Positions 1,044-22,677 of a stretch of DNA of 36,078 nt are shown here, piece by piece (the first letter of the stretch is position 1; each line of letters starts with the position of its first letter). Source of the DNA: Porticoccaceae bacterium. Lineage in GTDB: Bacteria > Pseudomonadota > Gammaproteobacteria > Pseudomonadales > Porticoccaceae. The translations under genes were made by a program, and so were the position numbers. Where the stretch lies: positions 1-36,078 of the forward strand of contig JAQXBF010000027.1 in the NCBI GenBank assembly GCA_029252555.1. The letters run 5' to 3'. Below the pieces are notes generated by a model. That model worked only from the letters and a program-made list of their open reading frames with translations, ran no database searches and had not been told where the DNA came from.

Positions 1044-1071
1044 TTGCCGAAATAATGATATGCTGTATCAT
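1044..1071 (+). promoter_or_regulatory. Predicted sigma70 promoter of the zrgA-zur operon
   Basis: TTGCCG (1044-1049) and TATCAT (1066-1071) are separated by 16 bases and resemble -35 and -10 boxes. Transcription would start near 1078, giving a leader of about 33 bases before the GTG at 1111. The -10 box forms the right arm of the inverted repeat at 1054-1072, so a bound repressor would block polymerase. Confidence 0.5.
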
Positions 1072-1072
1072 T
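1054..1072. promoter_or_regulatory. Putative Zur operator 1 (19-bp inverted repeat)
   Basis: AATGATA (1054-1060) and TATCATT (1066-1072) are a perfect 7-bp inverted repeat around TGCTG. It matches the site at 4648-4666 at 13 of 19 positions, including both half-site cores. Both sites lie upstream of genes of zinc-responsive families and close to a zur-like gene, so this is probably the binding site of that repressor. It departs from the classical enterobacterial Zur box, so binding is an inference. Confidence 0.65.
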
Positions 1073-1110
1073 CTTGGTTCACTTCTCCTCCTTATTTAGG
1101 CTTTTTACCG

Positions 1111-1689
1111 GTGAACCTAACTTTTAACAGTGGCACTTTCGTAATTCTGTGGTTATTTCTGGTAAACCTCAGTACTGCAGCCGAGCAGCACGACCATCAG
1201 CCTTTGCAACAAGTTGCGCACCTGCATGGTTATGTTGAACTTATGGCAGTCATAGAGGGAGGTAGCCTTGAAATCAATTTAGAGTCACCAGCGGCTAATA
1301 TTATTGGCTTTGAGCATAGGGCTATATCGAGTGAACAGTTACAGGCTATAGTGCTAGCAAAGCAGGTTCTCGAGTCACCGGCAGAGCTTTTTACATTTTC
1401 TGGTAGTGACTGTTCCCCAGCGCTAGCGCAGGCAAATTTTTCGGATTTAATCTCCGATGATCAGAATGATGGGCACCATCATGAGCACCGAGGGAATAAG
1501 CGGAGCCACAGTGAAGTTACCGCCAGCTACAAGTTTGCCTGCGTGCCACACGAAAAACTCGATGCCATCAGGGTGAATTTGATCAGTCACTTCTCAGGAA
1601 TAGAAAAAATTAGAGCTATGTGGCTGACCGATACAAAACAGGGTGCGATAGAGCTAACCCCAGAATTTAACCTTATCGAAATAAGGTAA
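1111..1689 (+). CDS. zrgA: ZrgA/DUF2796 His-rich periplasmic zinc protein
   Basis: This is a ZrgA-family (formerly DUF2796) exported protein, a family associated with zinc-starvation loci and thought to help capture zinc in the periplasm. The family signature is clear: AHLHGYVEL after the signal segment, then ESPAANIIGFEH, and a variable His-rich linker (DGHHHEHR) in the middle that is a likely metal-binding loop, followed by a Cys-containing C-terminal half. An ATG at 1060 would add 17 residues, but it lies inside the predicted operator and upstream of the predicted transcription start. I therefore prefer the GTG at 1111, which places a hydrophobic signal segment (TFVILWLFLVNLSTAA) at the N terminus; its ribosome site is weak and the start remains uncertain. 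The stop overlaps the first in-frame ATG of the next gene, so the two are translationally close. First gene of block A. Confidence 0.85.
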   Translation: MNLTFNSGTFVILWLFLVNLSTAAEQHDHQPLQQVAHLHGYVELMAVIEGGSLEINLESPAANIIGFEHRAISSEQLQAIVLAKQVLESPAELFTFSGSDCSPALAQANFSDLISDDQNDGHHHEHRGNKRSHSEVTASYKFACVPHEKLDAIRVNLISHFSGIEKIRAMWLTDTKQGAIELTPEFNLIEIR

Positions 1690-1694
1690 TGTTT

Positions 1695-2156
1695 ATGAGT
1701 AGAGTACAGATCGCAATTAACCACGCCGAGAGTAGTTGTAAAGCGCGCGGAGCAAAATTAACCAACAAGCGCAAGCAGGTTCTGTCTGGTTTATTACAAT
1801 CGAACAAGGCGAGATCTGCCTACCAACTGGTTGACTACTGCAAGGATGAATTTGGTGAAACCCTGCCGCCCATGTCGGTTTATCGCATTCTTGATTTTTT
1901 ACAAGATGAGCATTTGGTCCACAAGCTGAAGTCGGCTAACAAATACATTGCCTGTGCTCATATAAATTGTGATCACGCTCATGGCGTCTCACAATTTCTG
2001 ATTTGTAACCAATGCGAAGTTGTAAAGGAAATAACCATTAACAAGTCAACTATAAACGGATTGCAGCGCAACGTAGAGGACGCTGGCTTTCATTTGGCCA
2101 GTCCACAGTTGGAAATAAACGCTGTCTGCGACAGCTGCAAAAATAGAGCTGCCTGA
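1695..2156 (+). CDS. zur: Fur-family zinc uptake regulator Zur
   Basis: This 153-residue protein is a Fur-family metal-responsive repressor. The N-terminal winged helix (about 20-80) contains LTNKRKQVLSGLL and the recognition region PPMSVYRILDFLQDEHLVHKL, which is typical of Zur rather than Fur. The C-terminal dimerisation half carries two CxxC pairs (ICNQC and VCDSC) that form the structural zinc site in this family, and a His/Cys-rich segment (HINCDHAHG). The good AAGG ribosome site at 1683-1686 is 8 bases before the ATG at 1695 and only 2 bases before an ATG at 1689, so I chose 1695. With zinc bound it would repress its operon through the inverted repeat at 1054-1072, giving autoregulation; under zinc limitation the operon would be released. 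Zur specificity is inferred from neighbours as well as sequence. Confidence 0.9.
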   Translation: MSRVQIAINHAESSCKARGAKLTNKRKQVLSGLLQSNKARSAYQLVDYCKDEFGETLPPMSVYRILDFLQDEHLVHKLKSANKYIACAHINCDHAHGVSQFLICNQCEVVKEITINKSTINGLQRNVEDAGFHLASPQLEINAVCDSCKNRAA

Positions 2157-2178
2157 CCCTTAAACGAATAAGAAAATT

Positions 2179-2577
2179 ATGAATAATATACAAGTCGTTT
2201 CTGACAAAGCCGCTATCAGCCTGTCTTTTCTTTGCGCCATGCACTGTCTGGCAATGCCCCTGATCATTGTGATGTTGCCAGCACTGACCGTATTCAATTT
2301 GCAAGATGAAGCTGTTCACTGGTGGATGCTGATTGCTGTTATACCCACCAGCTTATTTGCCCTTACCATGGGGTGCAGAAAACATAAAAATTATAGCGTG
2401 ATGTCAATTGGCCTATTTGGAATTGCGATTTTAATTGCAACAGCATTCTTAGGCCATGATCTGCTGGGTGAAAAAGGTGAAAATATCTCCACCGCTATAG
2501 GCGCGCTTGTCGTTGCAGTGGGCCATGTGAAAAACCAAAGACTTTGTAGCCGCTCTGATTGTCAATGCGACACATAA
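2179..2577 (+). CDS. MerC-family inner-membrane metal protein
   Basis: This 132-residue protein matches the MerC family, known from mercury operons as inner-membrane metal carriers. It has four predicted membrane segments (about 11-35, 45-65, 75-93 and 103-118). The signature cysteine pair sits in the first helix as C19-A-M-H-C23 followed by LAMP, and a Cys-rich cytoplasmic tail follows the last helix (C123, C128, C130). There are no mer genes around it: it lies 22 bases after zur and 16 bases before hisI, inside the presumed zinc operon. A role in zinc or other soft-metal movement, perhaps handing metal to the COG0523 GTPase, is inferred from this context only. The ribosome site is weak. Confidence 0.8.
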   Translation: MNNIQVVSDKAAISLSFLCAMHCLAMPLIIVMLPALTVFNLQDEAVHWWMLIAVIPTSLFALTMGCRKHKNYSVMSIGLFGIAILIATAFLGHDLLGEKGENISTAIGALVVAVGHVKNQRLCSRSDCQCDT

Positions 2578-2593
2578 ACGAACTGCCCCTAAG

Positions 2594-3013
2594 ATGAAAA
2601 ACAATCACTTCGAGTCTATTGAGGGCTCTGAAAGCGGGAAGTCATTTGCGCTGCAAGACCTTATTGATGAATTAAATTTCAATAGCCAAGGTCTTATTCC
2701 CGTGATTACTCAAGACGCAACCAGCAAACAGGTTTTGATGTTGGCGTGGATGAATAAAGAGTCAATAGACCAAACATTATCCACGGGCCGCATGACCTAC
2801 TGGTCTAGAGGCCGCGAGAAACTGTGGATAAAAGGCGAAACCAGCGGCCATATTCAGTCTTTAGAGTCTATGCAGTTAGACTGTGATGGTGATGCCATAT
2901 TATGTTTGGTCAATCAAGTTGGGGTGGCCTGTCACACAGGCCGCGATCATTGTTTTTATTTTAAGGTCGACAGAAAAAATATGTCTGTTTCGGTTATGGG
3001 TTCAGCAGCATGA
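2594..3013 (+). CDS. hisI: Phosphoribosyl-AMP cyclohydrolase (HisI), zinc-locus copy
   Basis: HisI hydrolyses the purine ring of phosphoribosyl-AMP in histidine synthesis and is a zinc/magnesium enzyme. The 139 residues show all family blocks: MLAWMN at 49-54, TYWSRGREKLWIKGETSGHIQ, the D96-C97-D98-G99-D100 metal block and A-C113-H114-TGRDH-C120. The three cysteines and three aspartates that bind metal in characterised HisI are all kept, so this copy is not an obvious metal-free variant. There is no HisE domain. It is not in a his operon but overlaps the downstream COG0523 GTPase by 4 bases (ATGA). Extra hisI copies next to COG0523 genes are a known feature of zinc-response loci; whether another hisI exists in this genome cannot be seen here. 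Confidence 0.92.
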   Translation: MKNNHFESIEGSESGKSFALQDLIDELNFNSQGLIPVITQDATSKQVLMLAWMNKESIDQTLSTGRMTYWSRGREKLWIKGETSGHIQSLESMQLDCDGDAILCLVNQVGVACHTGRDHCFYFKVDRKNMSVSVMGSAA

Positions 3014-4029
3014 CGGCAACGGATACAAGAATCGAAGCAGTGCCCACCAATGTTATTACGGGCTTTTTAGGCGTCGGCAAAACATCGGCTATTTTGCACC
3101 TGTTGAAATCAAAGCCAGACAATGAACGCTGGGCGGTTTTGGTCAATGAGTTTGGTGAAATTGGTGTAGATGGTAACCTATTTGAAGGCCAGCACAATGA
3201 AGCTGGCAATGTTTTTATTCGCGAAGTACCGGGTGGTTGCATGTGTTGTGCAGCAGGGCTACCCATGCAGATTGCTCTCAATCAATTACTCAGTCGCGCC
3301 AAACCTGATCGTTTACTCATTGAGCCAACAGGGCTTGGCCACCCGATTGAGGTCCTAGAAGTGTTAACCGCTGAATATTATTTTAATGTACTGGCAATTC
3401 AAAAAATTATCACTCTGGTTGATGCGCGGAATCTGGCTGATACTCGTTACACTGACCACGCAACCTTTAATCAACAAATTGCGATAGCCGATATTATTGT
3501 CGGCAATAAGCAGGATCTTTATCTACCAGGGGATAAAGATCAGCTTGAAACCTATGCCAAATCAAAAGCCCTGTCAGAGGTAGATGTCATCTTCACCGAA
3601 CATGGCCAATTACCCATATCCGCCTTAGACGGGTCGACTGGTGCCAGGGTCGGCTCACATCAGCACCATCATCACAGCAATAAAGGCGCAGAACAGGTTA
3701 GTTTGGCTGTTGCGCCTTTGCCTGAAATTGGCTATCTAAAGGCGGTTAATCAAGGTGAAGGTTTCCACAGCATAGGTTGGCGCTTTGACGCTTCCAAAAC
3801 ATTCGATCGACAGGCCTTGTTTCTATTTTTAAGCGGTGTCTTTGCGGAAAGATTGAAAGCTGTTTTTATTACTGAAATCGGCGTGTTTGGTTACAACCTT
3901 ACCTCTGATGCTCTCACTGAAGTAGAGCTGGATGACTGTGTGGAAAGCCGCATTGAAATTATTGCCAGCGAAATTTCTGACCAATGGGATGAACAACTAC
4001 TAGCCTGCATAGTGACTAGTGGCCAATAG
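3010..4029 (+). CDS. COG0523 (CobW/ZigA/YeiR-type) metallochaperone GTPase
   Basis: This 339-residue G3E GTPase belongs to COG0523, whose zinc-linked members are proposed to deliver zinc to client enzymes during starvation. Seen in the sequence: Walker A GFLGVGKT at 18-25, the metal-binding CxCC motif GGCMCC with C77, C79 and C80, EPTGLGHP near 105-112, the base-specificity motif NKQD at 166-169, and a CobW C-terminal domain from about 230. A His-rich loop (H217, then H219-H222) links the two domains. The start ATG overlaps the hisI stop by 4 bases, indicating coupled translation. HisI is therefore the prime candidate client. The gene ends only 4 bases from the stop of the opposing DUF3299 gene, with no terminator visible between them. 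Confidence 0.93.
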   Translation: MTATDTRIEAVPTNVITGFLGVGKTSAILHLLKSKPDNERWAVLVNEFGEIGVDGNLFEGQHNEAGNVFIREVPGGCMCCAAGLPMQIALNQLLSRAKPDRLLIEPTGLGHPIEVLEVLTAEYYFNVLAIQKIITLVDARNLADTRYTDHATFNQQIAIADIIVGNKQDLYLPGDKDQLETYAKSKALSEVDVIFTEHGQLPISALDGSTGARVGSHQHHHHSNKGAEQVSLAVAPLPEIGYLKAVNQGEGFHSIGWRFDASKTFDRQALFLFLSGVFAERLKAVFITEIGVFGYNLTSDALTEVELDDCVESRIEIIASEISDQWDEQLLACIVTSGQ

Positions 4030-4033
4030 CCTG

Positions 4034-4621
4034 TTACTGGGTATAGGCCTCGTAACTGCGCATTTCAATGCCGTAGGCAGCTGTTGCCATATCATTTGAT
4101 ATCAGAGATGCCTTTAGAATACCTGAGATCCAAAACGGGTTGTACAGGGCTTCAAGTTTTAATCCTTCTGCATACTTCACATGGATAATCTGGTTTGGTG
4201 CTGGCGGTGGCATATGCAGGCAAGCGCCAAAATATGGCACCAGGAAAAACTCCGTGATAATTTGGTCGCCGTCAAATTCTATGGGGACAATAAATCCGGG
4301 TATGCGCACAGCTCTGCCGTCCATTTCAGGTTTTATATTGGTTGACACCAATGCCTCTTGGTAACGACTTTCTTCAGCATTGGCCAGGGTGTTTTTAAGC
4401 AAATTGCCAATTTGATCCTCAGCCGAACCATCTTCAATATCATCCATATAAGCAGGTGGGTTGGAAAGAATGTCAAATTCGTCCTGAGGGATAAGGTCAG
4501 TCCATTCAATTGTCACAAACTCAACAGCCTGAGCAGAAGCCTGGCTAACAGATAGTGGCACCAGCATTAATATCAACACAATCGTTTGGTTTAATATGCT
4601 TGATAGGTTCAATTTAGTCAC
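4034..4621 (-). CDS. DUF3299 exported protein of the zinc locus
   Basis: This 195-residue protein has an N-terminal signal peptide (hydrophobic 12-25, likely cleavage after ASA-QA near 32) and belongs to DUF3299. Family blocks seen are WTDLIP (40-45), GRAVRIPGFIVPIE (102-115) and the strongly conserved VPYFGACLHMPPPAPNQIIHV (128-148) with C134 and H136, a plausible metal site. The start is a GTG at 4621 with no clear ribosome site. DUF3299 proteins accompany the DUF2796/ABC gene sets controlled by Zur in Pseudomonas and Vibrio, to the best of my recall. Here the gene is divergent from the ABC genes across a shared putative operator. Its biochemical job is unknown; a periplasmic partner of the ABC permease is a reasonable inference. 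Confidence 0.85.
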   Translation of the reverse strand: MTKLNLSSILNQTIVLILMLVPLSVSQASAQAVEFVTIEWTDLIPQDEFDILSNPPAYMDDIEDGSAEDQIGNLLKNTLANAEESRYQEALVSTNIKPEMDGRAVRIPGFIVPIEFDGDQIITEFFLVPYFGACLHMPPPAPNQIIHVKYAEGLKLEALYNPFWISGILKASLISNDMATAAYGIEMRSYEAYTQ

Positions 4622-4647
4622 CGGTAAAATATAAAAGCGCCTGTTGC

Positions 4648-4666
4648 GATGATACAGTGTATCCTA
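4648..4666. promoter_or_regulatory. Putative Zur operator 2, shared by divergent genes
   Basis: ATGATA (4649-4654) and TATCCT (4660-4665) flank CAGTG, forming a near copy of the site at 1054-1072; both contain ATGATA-NNN-TG-TATC-N-T. It lies between the DUF3299 gene (start 4621, leftward) and the ABC ATPase gene (start 4711, rightward). A rightward -10-like TATATT at 4665-4670 touches its right arm. One bound repressor dimer could silence both directions. Binding is inferred from the repeat and its context. Confidence 0.6.
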
Positions 4667-4710
4667 TATTTTTGACACTCCATGCATTGAAACCCCAGTA
4701 GAAACTGAAT

Positions 4711-5391
4711 ATGGCCATTCAATTAAACGATGTGCGTTTTGCCTACCCTGAAGCCCCTAATGACTGTGTATTGAATATCAAAAGCTGGTCAGTTTCTGAT
4801 CAGGAGCATGTTTTTGTCCATGGCCCCTCTGGCGGTGGAAAGTCCACATTACTCAACCTGCTAAGTGGCATGTTGGATGCAAGCGATGGGGAGGTAAATG
4901 TGCTGGGCCAAAGGCTGGACAGCATGGGCGCTCGCCAGCGCGACCGTTTTAGAGCCAATCATATTGGCTATATTTTTCAGCAATTTAATCTGGTTCCCTA
5001 TATTGATGCGATTGATAATATTCAACTGGCTCATCAGTTCTCTAATCAACAGCCACAATCGTCGCTGTTTGACGAGATCAAATCGCTGCTATCAACCTTT
5101 CATATTCCCCAATCTGAATGGCATAAGCCCGTGGGCAAACTCAGCATAGGGCAACAGCAGCGCATTGCTATCGCCAGAGCAATGATCAATAAACCAGAGC
5201 TTCTGATTGCTGACGAGCCAACATCGTCCCTTGACAACAACAACCGTGATAATTTTATGTCTGAGCTTATGGCCATGGCATCGGAGCACCGCGTTACCTT
5301 GCTATTTGTTAGCCACGACATGTCATTAGCCAATTACTTTGGTCGCACTGATGCGCTCTCTGAGATCAATACAGTAGGAGAACACAACTAA
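4711..5391 (+). CDS. ABC transporter ATPase, LolD/MacB type, zinc locus
   Basis: This 226-residue ATPase belongs to the MacB/LolD/FtsE branch of ABC proteins. Walker A is GPSGGGKST (38-46), the Q-loop region reads YIFQQFNLVPY, the signature is a variant LSIGQQQR rather than LSGGQ, and Walker B is LLIADEPTS followed by LDNN and a switch histidine in FVSHD. It overlaps the start of the permease gene by one base, so the two form one unit. The set resembles the zinc-regulated ABC genes beside DUF2796 and DUF3299 in Pseudomonas and Vibrio. MacB-type systems usually drive extracytoplasmic conformational work rather than classic import, so the transport direction is open. Confidence 0.9.
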   Translation: MAIQLNDVRFAYPEAPNDCVLNIKSWSVSDQEHVFVHGPSGGGKSTLLNLLSGMLDASDGEVNVLGQRLDSMGARQRDRFRANHIGYIFQQFNLVPYIDAIDNIQLAHQFSNQQPQSSLFDEIKSLLSTFHIPQSEWHKPVGKLSIGQQQRIAIARAMINKPELLIADEPTSSLDNNNRDNFMSELMAMASEHRVTLLFVSHDMSLANYFGRTDALSEINTVGEHN

Positions 5392-6632
5392 TGTTTTTTC
5401 GGCTGGCAGTAAAAAGTTTATTGAATCGCAAAGGTTCTGTCATGCTCACTGTCTTGGCGATGGCTGTGAGCATTTTTGTGTTGTTGGGTGTGGAGCATAT
5501 CCGCGGCCAAAGCAAACAAAGCTTTAACAGCACAGTCTCTGGTGTCGACCTGATTGTCGGGGCACGAACTGGCAGCATGAACCTATTGCTCTATTCTGTG
5601 TTTCGTATGGGGTCGCCCACCAATAACATCGACTGGCAGACCTATCAAAATATTAGCGCCAACCCAAAGGTAGCATGGGTAATTCCTATTTCTCTGGGGG
5701 ATTCCCATAAGGGCTTTCGAGTCATGGGTACCACCACTGACTATTTCACGTATTTTAGCTATGGCAACAAACGCCAACTGAACTTCAGCCAAGGCAAGCC
5801 ATTTGAACAGGTCTTCGATGTTGTATTGGGCGCACAGGTAGCAAAAAAATTAAACTATACATTGGGTGAGAATATTATTTTGGCCCACGGCCTTGGCAAA
5901 ACCAGTTTTAGCACGCACGACCAAAGCCCGTTTAAAGTTGTAGGTATTTTGGGCCCTACGGGAACACCGGTTGACCAAACTGTGCATGTGAGCTTGCAAG
6001 GTATCGAAGCGGTTCATATGGACTGGCAACAGATTGCTAATATGTCTGGTGGCGCAGTATCCCATAAGCAAATACAGGCACTGGAGCTGGAGCCAAAAAA
6101 CATCACGGCTTTTATGCTGGGCTTAACTTCTCGAATGGCTACCTTTCGGGTTCAGCGGGATATCAACAATTACTCCAATGAACCCCTTACGGCTATATTG
6201 CCAGGAGTGGCTCTGGCAGAGCTGTGGCAAATGATGGGCCTGTTGGAAAATATCCTGCGGCTTATTTCTGGCCTGATACTGGTCGCCGCGCTGTTGGGGT
6301 TGAGCGCGATGATGCTGGCCTCTATCAGAGAACGCGAGCACGAAATACACTTGCTCAGAGTCATAGGCGCGCCCCCATGGTTTTTGTTTTTGTTGGTAGA
6401 GCTGGAAGCATTATTGGTTAGCTTTGTGAGCATGCTTGTTGGTATAACTGGTTTGTATTTAAGTCTGCTTATTGCCGGTGATGTGCTGTCGACGGACTTT
6501 GGTCTGCATATTGGGTTACATATCTTGTCTTTTAACAACCTTCTATTTCTATTGTTGGTGGCAGGCTCAACGCTTATTGCTGCGGCTATTCCTTCATTCA
6601 CGGCCTACAAAAGTGCCAGTAGAGGCCGGTGA
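5391..6632 (+). CDS. FtsX/MacB-like ABC permease, zinc locus
   Basis: This 413-residue permease has the MacB/FtsX layout: one N-terminal membrane helix (about 15-35), a large periplasmic domain (about 45-270) and three C-terminal helices (about 285-310, 330-355 and 380-405) with the FtsX-type AAxPxxxAYKxxxxG ending. The motif LREREHEIHLLRVIGAPPW-like block after the second helix (ASIREREHEIHLLRVIGAP) is the coupling region that contacts the ATPase. It starts at ATG 5391, overlapping the ATPase stop. Together the two would form a type VII ABC system using ATP to move something in the periplasm. A role in zinc acquisition or in remodelling a zinc-binding partner such as the DUF2796 or DUF3299 protein is inferred from the locus. 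Confidence 0.88.
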   Translation: MFFRLAVKSLLNRKGSVMLTVLAMAVSIFVLLGVEHIRGQSKQSFNSTVSGVDLIVGARTGSMNLLLYSVFRMGSPTNNIDWQTYQNISANPKVAWVIPISLGDSHKGFRVMGTTTDYFTYFSYGNKRQLNFSQGKPFEQVFDVVLGAQVAKKLNYTLGENIILAHGLGKTSFSTHDQSPFKVVGILGPTGTPVDQTVHVSLQGIEAVHMDWQQIANMSGGAVSHKQIQALELEPKNITAFMLGLTSRMATFRVQRDINNYSNEPLTAILPGVALAELWQMMGLLENILRLISGLILVAALLGLSAMMLASIREREHEIHLLRVIGAPPWFLFLLVELEALLVSFVSMLVGITGLYLSLLIAGDVLSTDFGLHIGLHILSFNNLLFLLLVAGSTLIAAAIPSFTAYKSASRGR

Positions 6633-20025: not shown

Positions 20026-22677
20026 ATGTTTTTTAAACGCAGAAGTATAAGTGCGGCTATTTTGGCTGGCACCGCTTTATTATCGACAACCACAGCGGTT
20101 GCTCAAGAGATTAATGAAGGAACCATCGAAGAGATTCAAGTAACCGGTTCATATATTAAGAGCACACCCGGCGATGCGGCATTGCCAGTGCAGGTTCTTA
20201 ATCGTGATTACATTGATGGCATAGGCGCTATCTCAGTAGCTGACGTGATTGGCAAGCTGGCGATCAGTTCTGGTGCAGAAAACCAAACTGACTCATTCAC
20301 CCAGGGTTCGACTCAGGGTACAGCTAATGTGAATTTGCGAGGCTTGGGCCTGAGCTCGACTCTGGTATTGATCAATGGCCGTCGCCAGACAATTTCTGGT
20401 GCGCTGGCTAATGATGGCAGTGTCTTTGTTGATACCAGCAGTATTCCTATTACCGCTCTGGAGCGTGTCGAAGTATTGAAAGAGGGTGCGGCTTCTACCT
20501 ATGGTTCCGATGCCATTGCCGGTGTAGTTAACTTTATTCTGCGTAAAGACTTTGATGGTTTTGAGTTGAGCACAAATCTGTCTTCAGTAGACCGTGGTGA
20601 TCAAGAAGATCAGTCTGTTGGTTTTATCTGGGGTGGCGGCAACGACACAACTCGCTTTACCGTTGCGGGAAACATTATTGATCGCACCTCTCTGGGTGCT
20701 TCCGACCGGCCTGAGTTGGTTGATAATGCCCGCAGTTCGTTGGGAGCTAGCTTCGTTGCGATGCCTCATCTGGCTGGCATGGCAAGCGTTACATTAGATT
20801 CTGGTCCCTATGCTGGCACCTATGGTCCTGGCCAGCGCTTTGCTATTGATGGCTGTGCCGGTCTTGAGGGCGGTTCGGTTGTTCCTACTCCGGCTGGGCC
20901 CATGTGTTTCTTCCAGTACGGCACCAGATTTAATCTGGTTGCAGCAGAAGAGAGAACTCAGCTATATGCCAATATGACCCACGAGATGGCCAATGGTGTT
21001 GAGATGACCGCTGAGCTCGGTTATGCCAGCAACAAGGTCACGGAAAACCCTCAGTCGCCAAGCTATCCCGACCTGACATTCCCACTAATCTCTGGTGATC
21101 ATCCCAGCAATGACTTGGGTGTGCCACTGGTATGGTTGGGTAGACCCCTTGCGTTTGACTACCCGTCCCCAAATGCGCCCCGTCAAAACGATACATTGCG
21201 TGCTTCCCTTAGCTTTAAGGGTGAGCTGAGCAATAGCTGGGCTTGGGATGCGGCATTGACTCGCAGCAGTAACGAGTACAGCGCCAGACAGCCAGATACC
21301 AAGTCGTCTCGCTTGAGAGCTGGTCTTGCCGGCGTGGGTGGTCCTACCAACAACGAATACTATGATCCATTTGTGTCGTCTAACAATAGCGCAGCATTGA
21401 TCGCTGATATGAGCTATCTCACGGATACTCAGCGCACCACAGATTTGACCGTAGCCGATGCGGTTGTCAGTGGTGAATTGATGACTCTGGCTTCAGGTGC
21501 AACTGTAGACTTTGCTGCTGGTATTCAGGTACGTCGCGAAGGCTACAAAACTGAGACCGATGACCTTTATGAAATCAAGTTTGATGCGAATGGTAACCCG
21601 ATCCCCATCGATTTGATCTTCCTGGGCGGTGTTTCGGAGATTGACATCAGTCGCACCGGTGTATCTGCTTTTGCTGAAGCTAAAACTGCTCTGTCAGACA
21701 ATGTTGAGCTAACGGCAGCATTGCGTTACGAAGACTTGGACAGCGGCAGCAGCGTTGATCCCAAGTTGGCACTGCGCTGGCAGTTGTCTGATCAGTGGGC
21801 ATTGCGCGCGTCTGCCAGTACGGCATTCCGTGAGCCTTCGCTGTCACAGATCAATGCTCAGGTGGTTAACCTAGAAGGTATTCAGGACTTCAATGCCGAT
21901 GGTTCGGCGAATGGTGGTGTTGCCTTTGTTCGTGTCACCTCTTCAGGGTCGGAAGACTTGCAAGCGGAAGAGTCTGATAACTTCAATGTTGGCTTGATTT
22001 TCCAGCCCTCAGATGACCTCGACTTCAAGCTGGATTACTGGGTAGTGGATTATACTAATCTGATCACCGTCGAAAACGCACAGGGTAAAGTGGCTGCGGA
22101 TATCAATGGAGCAGACGTGATTCGCAGTGATACCGGCACTCTTGCAGGCGTGCTTGTAGACTACTTTAACTCCTCAAGTGTTGACGTTAGCGGTATCGAT
22201 CTGGAAGTCAATTGGGCGCTGAATGAGAACTGGAATATGGGCCTGAATATTGCTCATTTCCTAGAGTACGATATTACTCTGCCTACCGGTGATGTTGTCG
22301 ATGCAGTGGGTTATTTGAACAACAATAACTTCGCTCGTTCTATGCCAGCGACCAAGGCTAATTTGAATGTTGCCTGGACCAATGGCGCACAAAATGCCTC
22401 GTTAAATGTTCACCACATCACTGACTATCAGCACAGCCAGACTGTACCGGCTACTGAGAGTCAGAGCATTGATTCCTACACTACTGTTGATGGCCAGTAT
22501 GGCATCACCATGGCGGCAGGTGCAGATGATGGCGAGCTAATGTTGAGCGTTGGTGTTAAGAATATGTTCGACGAGAAGCCACCACGTGTATACGACAGCG
22601 CTAACTACAGCTTTGACTCCAAGCAGCACAGCCCATTGGGTCGTGTGTACTATGTTAAGGCTAACTACAGCTTCTAA
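20026..22677 (+). CDS. TonB-dependent outer-membrane receptor
   Basis: The 883-residue protein is a TonB-dependent receptor for energised uptake across the outer membrane. After a signal peptide (cleavage after TAVAQ, about residue 27) come a TonB-box-like segment (IEEIQVTGSYIK), the plug domain (about 50-175) with the blocks NVNLRGLGLSSTLVLINGRR and AASTYGSDAIAGVVNFILRKDFDG, and a long beta-barrel ending in the expected aromatic (VKANYSF). The GSYI(K/R) and INGRR forms are typical of the large receptors of marine gammaproteobacteria that import peptides, oligosaccharides or other larger substrates. The divergent exported aminopeptidase makes peptide uptake a reasonable guess, no more. It is followed by a strong terminator. 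Confidence 0.93.
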   Translation: MFFKRRSISAAILAGTALLSTTTAVAQEINEGTIEEIQVTGSYIKSTPGDAALPVQVLNRDYIDGIGAISVADVIGKLAISSGAENQTDSFTQGSTQGTANVNLRGLGLSSTLVLINGRRQTISGALANDGSVFVDTSSIPITALERVEVLKEGAASTYGSDAIAGVVNFILRKDFDGFELSTNLSSVDRGDQEDQSVGFIWGGGNDTTRFTVAGNIIDRTSLGASDRPELVDNARSSLGASFVAMPHLAGMASVTLDSGPYAGTYGPGQRFAIDGCAGLEGGSVVPTPAGPMCFFQYGTRFNLVAAEERTQLYANMTHEMANGVEMTAELGYASNKVTENPQSPSYPDLTFPLISGDHPSNDLGVPLVWLGRPLAFDYPSPNAPRQNDTLRASLSFKGELSNSWAWDAALTRSSNEYSARQPDTKSSRLRAGLAGVGGPTNNEYYDPFVSSNNSAALIADMSYLTDTQRTTDLTVADAVVSGELMTLASGATVDFAAGIQVRREGYKTETDDLYEIKFDANGNPIPIDLIFLGGVSEIDISRTGVSAFAEAKTALSDNVELTAALRYEDLDSGSSVDPKLALRWQLSDQWALRASASTAFREPSLSQINAQVVNLEGIQDFNADGSANGGVAFVRVTSSGSEDLQAEESDNFNVGLIFQPSDDLDFKLDYWVVDYTNLITVENAQGKVAADINGADVIRSDTGTLAGVLVDYFNSSSVDVSGIDLEVNWALNENWNMGLNIAHFLEYDITLPTGDVVDAVGYLNNNNFARSMPATKANLNVAWTNGAQNASLNVHHITDYQHSQTVPATESQSIDSYTTVDGQYGITMAAGADDGELMLSVGVKNMFDEKPPRVYDSANYSFDSKQHSPLGRVYYVKANYSF

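Follow-up and report, generated by a model that had tools for sequence, protein, structure and literature searches.

The DNA considered here, referred to below as the window, is the whole of contig JAQXBF010000027.1 (36,078 nucleotides) from a Porticoccaceae bacterium (assembly GCA_029252555.1); it forms contig C35 in a genome of 2.30 Mb and 97.5% completeness, which belongs to the same genus as genome G202. Near its left end (1044–6632) lies a cluster of eight genes that probably represents a self-contained second zinc regulon, governed by a repressor of its own (ZurL) and placed beside the classical Zur–znu regulon of the same cell. All eight genes had been named in a first-pass annotation made from the sequence alone; they lie where it placed them, and their families were matched in Pfam. 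Five of them form a forward run (1060–4029): zrgA (1060–1689 as the open reading frame is listed; DUF2796/ZrgA, E = 1e-40), zurL for a Fur/Zur-family repressor (1689–2156; FUR, 1e-10), a merC-family gene for a membrane protein (2179–2577; MerC, 3e-29), a hisI paralogue for phosphoribosyl-AMP cyclohydrolase (2594–3013; PRA-CH, 2e-34), and a gene for a COG0523/CobW-type GTPase (3010–4029; cobW, 4e-44). The reverse strand carries a zrgE-like gene for a DUF3299 protein with an N-terminal signal-like stretch (4034–4621; 1e-46). It is followed by a forward ABC pair (4711–6632) consisting of a MacB/LolD-like ATPase (4711–5391; ABC_tran, 3e-30) and a MacB/FtsX-type permease (5391–6632; FtsX and MacB_PCD). 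The DUF3299 gene is convergent with cobW and divergent from the ABC pair. The “two facing blocks” of the annotation describe this only loosely, the layout being five forward genes, one reverse gene, and a forward pair.

A putative operator shared by both parts of the cluster had also been proposed, and it is indeed present. Its predicted copies, both revealed by pattern scan, are TGATATGCTGTATCA (1056–1070), located upstream of zrgA, and TGATACAGTGTATCC (4650–4664), located inside the divergent gap between the DUF3299 gene and the ABC pair. The ATG at 1060, given as the zrgA start by the ORF finder, overlaps the first copy; judged by eye, the in-frame GTG at 1111, which precedes a signal-peptide-like stretch, is the likelier start, which would put the operator about 40 bp upstream of the gene. 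A sigma-70-like promoter, TTGCCG-16-TATCAT (1044–1071, forward strand, consensus match only), has its −10 element over the right half of copy 1, and the scan of this stretch found one promoter against a shuffle mean of 0.2. At copy 2, one half-site is likewise overlapped, here on the minus strand, by a promoter-like −10 hexamer (TATCAT); with two promoters found in the stretch against a shuffle mean of 1.6, this match is not above chance. In the whole 2.30 Mb genome, the pattern TGATANNNTGTATC has three sites, compared to 0 for the reversed control pattern, and the third of them (C20:7216) is found some 55 bp ahead of another COG0523 gene, the product of which passes the NCBIfam cut-off NF038288 (701.6 bits vs 600) for ZigA, a GTPase acting as zinc metallochaperone. 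Weak matches mean little, since TGATACANTGTATCA with up to three mismatches gives 73 sites in the genome against 48 for the reversed control; the six two-mismatch TGATACANTGTATCA sites outside the cluster and zigA have no evident zinc gene downstream when their context is read by eye.

The FUR domain of ZurL (PF01475) scores 42.3 bits over a cut-off of 23.1, and the protein stays below the cut-off of the NCBIfam Zur equivalog NF008646 (89.6 bits vs 167). The best matches of its profile in the Protein Data Bank (PDB) are the Zur proteins of Xanthomonas campestris (7dh7) and Escherichia coli (4mtd); the AlphaFold2 (AF2) model, with a predicted local distance difference test (pLDDT) value of 87.9, likewise matches best the DNA-bound E. 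coli Zur 4mtd at a template modelling (TM) score of 0.81. Residue conservation was followed in the best 80 of 311 ZurL loci (L076–L155), which were found by two peptide patterns including M62/S63 and H91. The Zur metal ligands H78, C89, E114, C106, C109, C147, and C150 are present in 80/80 rows and H96 in 79/80; in E. coli Zur, as described in passages of PMC4219657, site A is formed by four Cys, and site B by His, Cys, His, and Glu. The base-reading Tyr45 and Arg65 occur in all ZurL and all classical Zur rows. The fold, both metal sites, and these two residues are thus common to ZurL and to the classical gammaproteobacterial Zur, represented by the E. coli protein (4mtd) and by the copy that the same genome holds on contig C24.

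The two proteins differ in the recognition helix, where ZurL has M62 (76/80), S63 (76/80), and I67 (78/80) in the columns occupied by P (24/27), T (27/27), and A (27/27) in the classical rows. ZurL also has the extra conserved residues H91 (80/80), C94 (75/80), and H98 (80/80), at which the classical rows mostly show other residues (H91 in 2/27) or a gap (26/27 at H98). In the 12-row alignment A2, the loci of which were chosen by ZrgA and not by the peptide patterns, H91, C94, and H98 are invariant, and M62 and S63 reach at least 90%. Locus L084, a copy of L083, was dropped from the tree, the alignment, and the module counts, and L255 was left out of the classical alignment rows. In a 106-row tree, one branch with a support of 100/98 splits 85 ZurL rows from 20 classical Zur rows, although the bootstrap was unsettled, very long branches lead to this split and to the Fur outgroup, and the tree does not establish the root. 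Judging from the alignments and the tree, ZurL may be regarded as a separate, well-supported lineage, a divergent Zur paralogue, which also differs from the classical protein in its operator, TGATAYNNNRTATCA.

The classical counterpart is found in the same cell. The genome holds three FUR-family genes: one on contig C28 with the score of a typical Fur (150 bits), the gene on C24, and the window’s zurL. The C24 gene adjoins znuA (PF01297), with znuC and znuB (recognised by eye) behind it, and the zur–znuA gap contains classical-type boxes, AGTTATAATATAACA (one mismatch) and AGATATATTATAACA (two mismatches), of the TGTTATANTATAACA type. This neighbourhood, together with the boxes, indicates that the cell already has a classical Zur, to which ZurL is 39% identical. 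The earlier suggestion that the cluster stands “all under one repressor” was right in giving it its own Zur-type repressor with shared operators, but it left out the second, classical Zur beside znuA. The classical box TGTTATANTATAACA at up to two mismatches has five sites in the genome, none on the window contig, against seven for the reversed control; the three sites outside zur/znuA show no evident zinc gene by eye.

Comparison with relatives supports the annotation in taking the cluster for a zinc-limitation type of unit that shares operators and encodes a Zur-type repressor itself. Among the 80 ZurL loci, the gene immediately downstream of the repressor is MerC in 44 and the one immediately upstream is ZrgA in 33; 20 loci have HisI, 17 of them right after MerC; a cluster-type COG0523 gene occurs in 35 and DUF3299 in 39. 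Both DUF3299 and the permease are held by 32 of the 80 loci, and among these there are 26 cases in which the DUF3299 gene diverges from that of the ABC ATPase. The annotation had considered both MerC inside such a unit and the opposing layout unusual; this neighbourhood comparison speaks otherwise, since neither MerC nor the reversed gene is peculiar to the window. The unit is composed of known zinc-starvation parts in an arrangement that recurs in relatives.

In a sample of the order, a ZurL-type match of at least 150 bits was found in 77/293 genomes (counted from the match table); typical classical Zur rows reach no more than 116 bits, with a few rows between. When 50 of the 77 ZurL genomes were queried with classical Zur, 17 proved to have it also and 33 did not (call at 99 bits or more; G084 is borderline at 99.9). 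In the window’s genus, 13/39 sampled genomes have a ZurL-type row (at least 189 bits), 37/39 a classical-type row (the others being G319 and G321), and 12/39 both. On these matches, ZurL is an accessory second Zur in the window’s genus, and many other genomes have no Zur-type gene recognised besides it. The distribution of zrgA is patchy: the order sample includes six members of the genus, of which the window genome alone has it, and it is present in 5/12 further ZurL loci of this genus.

The operator type follows the repressor. A pattern-free count of all exact inverted repeats in 110 ZurL regions placed TGATA-N5-TATCA first, with 29 regions, the best repeat of one shuffle reaching 3. The exact operator TGATAYNNNRTATCA is found in 27/110 ZurL regions (shuffled mean 0.0) and in 0/20 classical zur/znu loci, and with one mismatch in 55/110 (shuffled 0.6) and 3/20, respectively, whereas the classical box at up to two mismatches occurs in 9/110 and 18/20; the stretches scanned were about 2–6 kb for the classical loci (0.3 kb for the window genome’s own locus) and about 0.5 kb for the ZurL regions. 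The strongest control for this covariation compares transport modules that are accompanied by ZurL with modules of the same kind that lack it. The new operator (no more than one mismatch) occurs in 28/34 zrg modules with ZurL vs 1/21 without it (Fisher 1.3e-8), and the classical box (up to two mismatches) in 5/34 vs 13/21. Twenty of the 21 ZurL-less modules come from genomes with only a classical-type match, and the other one from Catenovulum adriaticum. In these comparisons operator and repressor covary, the site type following the repressor present. The Catenovulum adriaticum module, MerC–DUF3299–ABC on a plasmid (L283, 5925–9289), has no ZurL in the fetched stretch and carries the classical Zur boxes TGTTATATTATAACA and TGTTATAACATAACA at the two corresponding promoter positions.

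Genome scans for the exact pattern gave 26 sites in 12 genomes with ZurL and 3 in four genomes of the genus that lack it; over these 16 genomes the reversed control has a single site, compared to 29. Read in context, ZigA-type genes have an exact site ahead of them in six further genomes (G195, G152, G202, G214, G242, and G192, in the last of which a dksA-like gene stands between the site and the ZigA-type gene). A TonB-receptor gene has an exact site just before it in G152 and 0.5–0.6 kb away in G021 and G241, in the latter case inside another ORF. The window itself contains a large ORF (20026–22677) that looks by eye like a TonB-dependent receptor; the genome pattern scan gave no TGATANNNTGTATC site near it.

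From the genes, the two repressor lineages, the two operator types that covary with them, and the zinc-type targets, all read from sequence, we infer zinc as the signal, repression as the mode of control, insulation from Zur, and a function for each product. Zinc-bound ZurL would bind the palindrome TGATAYNNNRTATCA or close forms of it at three places of the genome: before zrgA–zurL–merC–hisI–cobW, in the gap separating DUF3299 from the MacB pair, and ahead of zigA on its distant contig. In this position it would block RNA polymerase, since promoter-like −10 elements, recognised only by their match to the consensus, overlap both window operators. A fall in cytoplasmic zinc would strip ZurL of its metal and make it leave the DNA. 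The products then released would include ZrgA as a periplasmic zinc binder, the MerC membrane protein, a spare HisI with zinc cysteines, two COG0523 GTPases, and the DUF3299/MacB machine, presumably of an export type. The ZurL regulon would in this way operate next to the classical Zur–znu regulon of the same cell and, at least in part, independently of it.

The direction of transport by the DUF3299/MacB part is the point at which another explanation survives best. ZrgA, the MacB-type ATPase and permease, and DUF3299 occur together in the window by Pfam, as in the Vibrio ZrgABCDE system, which is under zinc control; according to the passages of PMC9817125, Vibrio parahaemolyticus requires ZrgA to acquire zinc, and Zur represses the operon to which it belongs. 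In the five-gene list given there, a repressor, MerC, HisI, and COG0523 are lacking, unlike in the window; the putative Zur site is of the classical type with a TGTTATATTATAACA core, also unlike the window; and DUF2607 (ZrgD) is included, which was not found among the ten window proteins scanned, small ORFs not being scanned. The window ZrgA itself stays below the cut-off of the NCBIfam equivalog NF047873 (104.8 bits vs 185). The annotation had supposed that the periplasmic and membrane parts gather zinc, i.e., that DUF3299 and the MacB pair form a zinc-uptake machine fed by ZrgA. The Vibrio data support this for acquisition by ZrgA; for the membrane part, the relative in Pseudomonas aeruginosa speaks against it. 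PA4063–PA4066, with a ZrgA homologue and a MacB-type ATPase and permease under Zur repression, resembles the window module, and the passages of PMC11481552 describe it as a MacB-type exporter of a cobalt–pyochelin complex. It comprises four genes, with no repressor of its own, MerC, HisI, or COG0523, unlike the window. We take PA4066 to be its DUF3299 member. The FtsX/MacB fold is that of exporters and mechanotransmission machines, and the window permease is of this type. Because of the permease type, we would consider export of a metal–chelator complex or a related substrate by the MacB pair about twice as probable as zinc import, and the uptake machine remains a minority option, though a serious one.

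Several observations weigh against the picture of a separate ZurL regulon, and the first of them suggests one regulon with two redundant repressors, in which the TGATA sites are also bound by Zur, or the classical boxes by ZurL, and the second repressor serves only for dosage or fine tuning. The main difference between the half-sites is at position 3 (A in 70/92 counts for the new operator vs T in 11/14 for the classical box, both strands counted), and both types keep the R-N-N-N-Y core, which E. coli Zur reads according to the passages of PMC4219657; cross-recognition is therefore possible, the more so as the base-reading Tyr and Arg are present in all rows of both proteins. Sites of a hybrid character, i.e., the new operator at one mismatch, were seen at 3/20 classical loci and at 1/8 of those in the genus, and six of the 34 ZurL modules lack the new operator at this level. 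Genome G057, which has both repressors, contains no exact site genome-wide, and its cluster box is nearer the classical type. Exact sites also fall inside unrelated genes: a VanZ-like gene (G195), pheT (G021), a restriction gene (G241), an MFS gene (G222), and a GMC oxidoreductase gene (G281). We had expected znuA in ZurL-only genomes to carry the new operator; among 20 loci fetched around ZnuA-family matches, ZnuA was recognised in 11, and the exact operator stands at znuA in only 2 of these; two other loci, L258 and L272, have an exact site elsewhere. Finally, the rows are related, the sets overlap, and the module sets differ in taxa, so that the p-values overstate the association, and the stretches scanned were longer for modules with ZurL than for those without (mean 7.2 vs 4.7 kb).

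Redundancy is nevertheless hard to reconcile with the way in which the new operator follows the repressor among modules (28/34 vs 1/21), and with the 33/50 ZurL genomes in which no classical Zur was recognised at 99 bits or more. The window’s genus provides a comparison of its own, in genomes with both repressors. In its 12 ZurL loci, which overlap with the 80 used above, the exact new operator is found in 10, the one-mismatch form in 11, and the classical box in 1; in the 8 zur/znuA loci of eight of the same genomes, the classical box (up to two mismatches) is found in all 8, the exact new operator in 0, and the one-mismatch form in 1. We regard two redundant repressors of one regulon as rather improbable, and separate control by ZurL as the better explanation.

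Still less credit may be given to the possibility that ZurL senses another metal, e.g., cobalt, nickel, or manganese, to which the cluster would respond. The extra H91, C94, and H98, rare or absent in classical Zur, might be taken for it, as might the cobalt–pyochelin complex handled by the related PA4063–4066 (described in the passages of PMC11481552). The zinc ligands of Zur are kept in ZurL, though, the targets are zinc genes (ZrgA, ZigA-type genes, and znuA in two genomes), and the ZurL-less transport module carries classical Zur boxes in 13/21 cases, which together make another metal very unlikely. That the palindromes are chance matches is barely conceivable and already disfavoured: exact sites do occur away from zinc genes, some in ZurL genomes and 3 in the four genus genomes without ZurL (the two inspected both lie inside unrelated genes), but all three TGATANNNTGTATC sites of the window genome stand beside zinc-type genes with a control of 0, the shuffled expectation in 110 regions is near 0, and the 16-genome control gives 1 vs 29.

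The MerC protein of the cluster (PF03203, 102.1 bits over a cut-off of 27.6) shares its Pfam family with MerC of mercury-resistance operons, from which it differs in its conserved His residues and its linkage to a zinc-type repressor. D9, C19, H22, C23, H47, C66, H69, and H116 are present in 35/35 rows, and in a 48-row set C66 reaches 96% and H116 98%. Membership in a mer operon was considered and rejected, as no Mer enzyme or regulator was found among the ten window proteins scanned. A plasmid search for MerC gave 10 records, and neither of the two neighbourhoods inspected was a mer operon. Owing to the conserved residues and the place beside a zinc-type repressor, a role as zinc carrier appears plausible. 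The fold could not be taken from the AF2 model, which was weak (pLDDT 70.5; best PDB match in Foldseek at E 1.7); the model is consistent with a helical membrane protein, and no more is concluded from it. On a Tolypothrix plasmid (L281, 5627–6387), a MerC-family gene stands directly behind an ArsR/SmtB-type regulator and adjoins a heavy-metal P-type ATPase gene, which links MerC to another class of metal regulator, so that its transport may serve another metal or run in another direction.

HisI of the window (NF000768, 163.6 bits vs a cut-off of 126) is a second copy, the other one adjoining a hisE-like gene on contig C33. C97, C113, and C120, which we take to be the zinc ligands, are at 100% in 21 rows; since these three conserved cysteines are kept, the window HisI does not look zinc-sparing. 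The cluster-type HisI also has a fourth invariant cysteine close to C97, C104 (window 2903–2905; 21/21 rows), at which the other HisI of the genome has Met and PDB 1zps has Leu. The COG0523 GTPase (G3E domain PF02492, 4e-44) has a GGCMCC motif, in which the CxCC cysteines C77, C79, and C80 are at 100% in 36 rows, and a His-rich stretch; with 70 bits against the NF038288 cut-off of 600 it is not of the ZigA type, as distinct from its relative on C20. This GTPase might supply zinc to HisI and, as the annotation had supposed, protect it; HisI is found in 20/80 of the ZurL loci. Haas et al. had described Zur-regulated HisI paralogues with intact zinc ligands in 2009 (PMC2770081), in passages that place such paralogues together with COG0523 in Zur regulons, as here. 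A search of the paper’s main text found no DUF2796 and no mention of mercury, unlike the window cluster, and a second Zur lineage with another operator does not appear in these passages. In Pseudomonas protegens, hisI2 is among the genes answering zinc limitation, according to the passages of PMC6103462.

The novelty would lie in a Zur lineage additional to the classical one, with an operator and targets of its own, and not in the unit itself. Most accounts of Zur assume a single repressor and a single box in each cell. An open-access literature search for a second or paralogous Zur gave none with another operator among the matches listed; in the passages of PMC5387054, “two Zur” refers to binding motifs. 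Searches of the same literature for MerC with “zinc uptake regulator” gave only one plant review among the matches listed, those for MerC domain, family, or -like with zinc gave nothing, and MerC was absent among the matches listed in a related search. For Zur with SAR92, only one community survey was found, and the text of PMC5343134 does not contain “Zur”.

If this reading is true, zinc-regulon predictions based on the classical box alone would miss a part of the response in marine Gammaproteobacteria, and two parallel zinc responses may exist in some bacteria of the ocean. The same transport module, occurring with and without ZurL and with operators that differ accordingly, would represent a natural experiment in repressor–operator co-evolution, and the poorly understood MerC family would gain a testable zinc role. 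More tentatively, and at somewhat less than an even chance, one can suggest that the ZurL lineage was spread by horizontal transfer, also to a cyanobacterial plasmid, bringing an orthogonal operator and an extra His/Cys metal site, that many marine bacteria keep two zinc regulons insulated from each other and tuned to different set-points, and that the MerC proteins are carriers of zinc and not of mercury.

Some minor observations on the repressor and its sites may be added. In G245 and G162 (L256 and L257), which have no recognised classical Zur, ZurL lies near znuA and the exact new operator is in the znuA promoter; ZurL may act there in place of classical Zur. In two ZurL genomes of one family, the znuA/znuC gaps (L267, 1912–1934; L268, 3223–3245) share a GAAATGGTATATCATAGCATTTC-type palindrome, perhaps a third operator form. 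A ZurL relative with 56% identity is found beside zigA on plasmid pREC2 of the cyanobacterium Acaryochloris marina (L282, 4457–6486), where the exact operator TGATACGATGTATCA precedes zigA, an apparent transfer of repressor and operator to another phylum.

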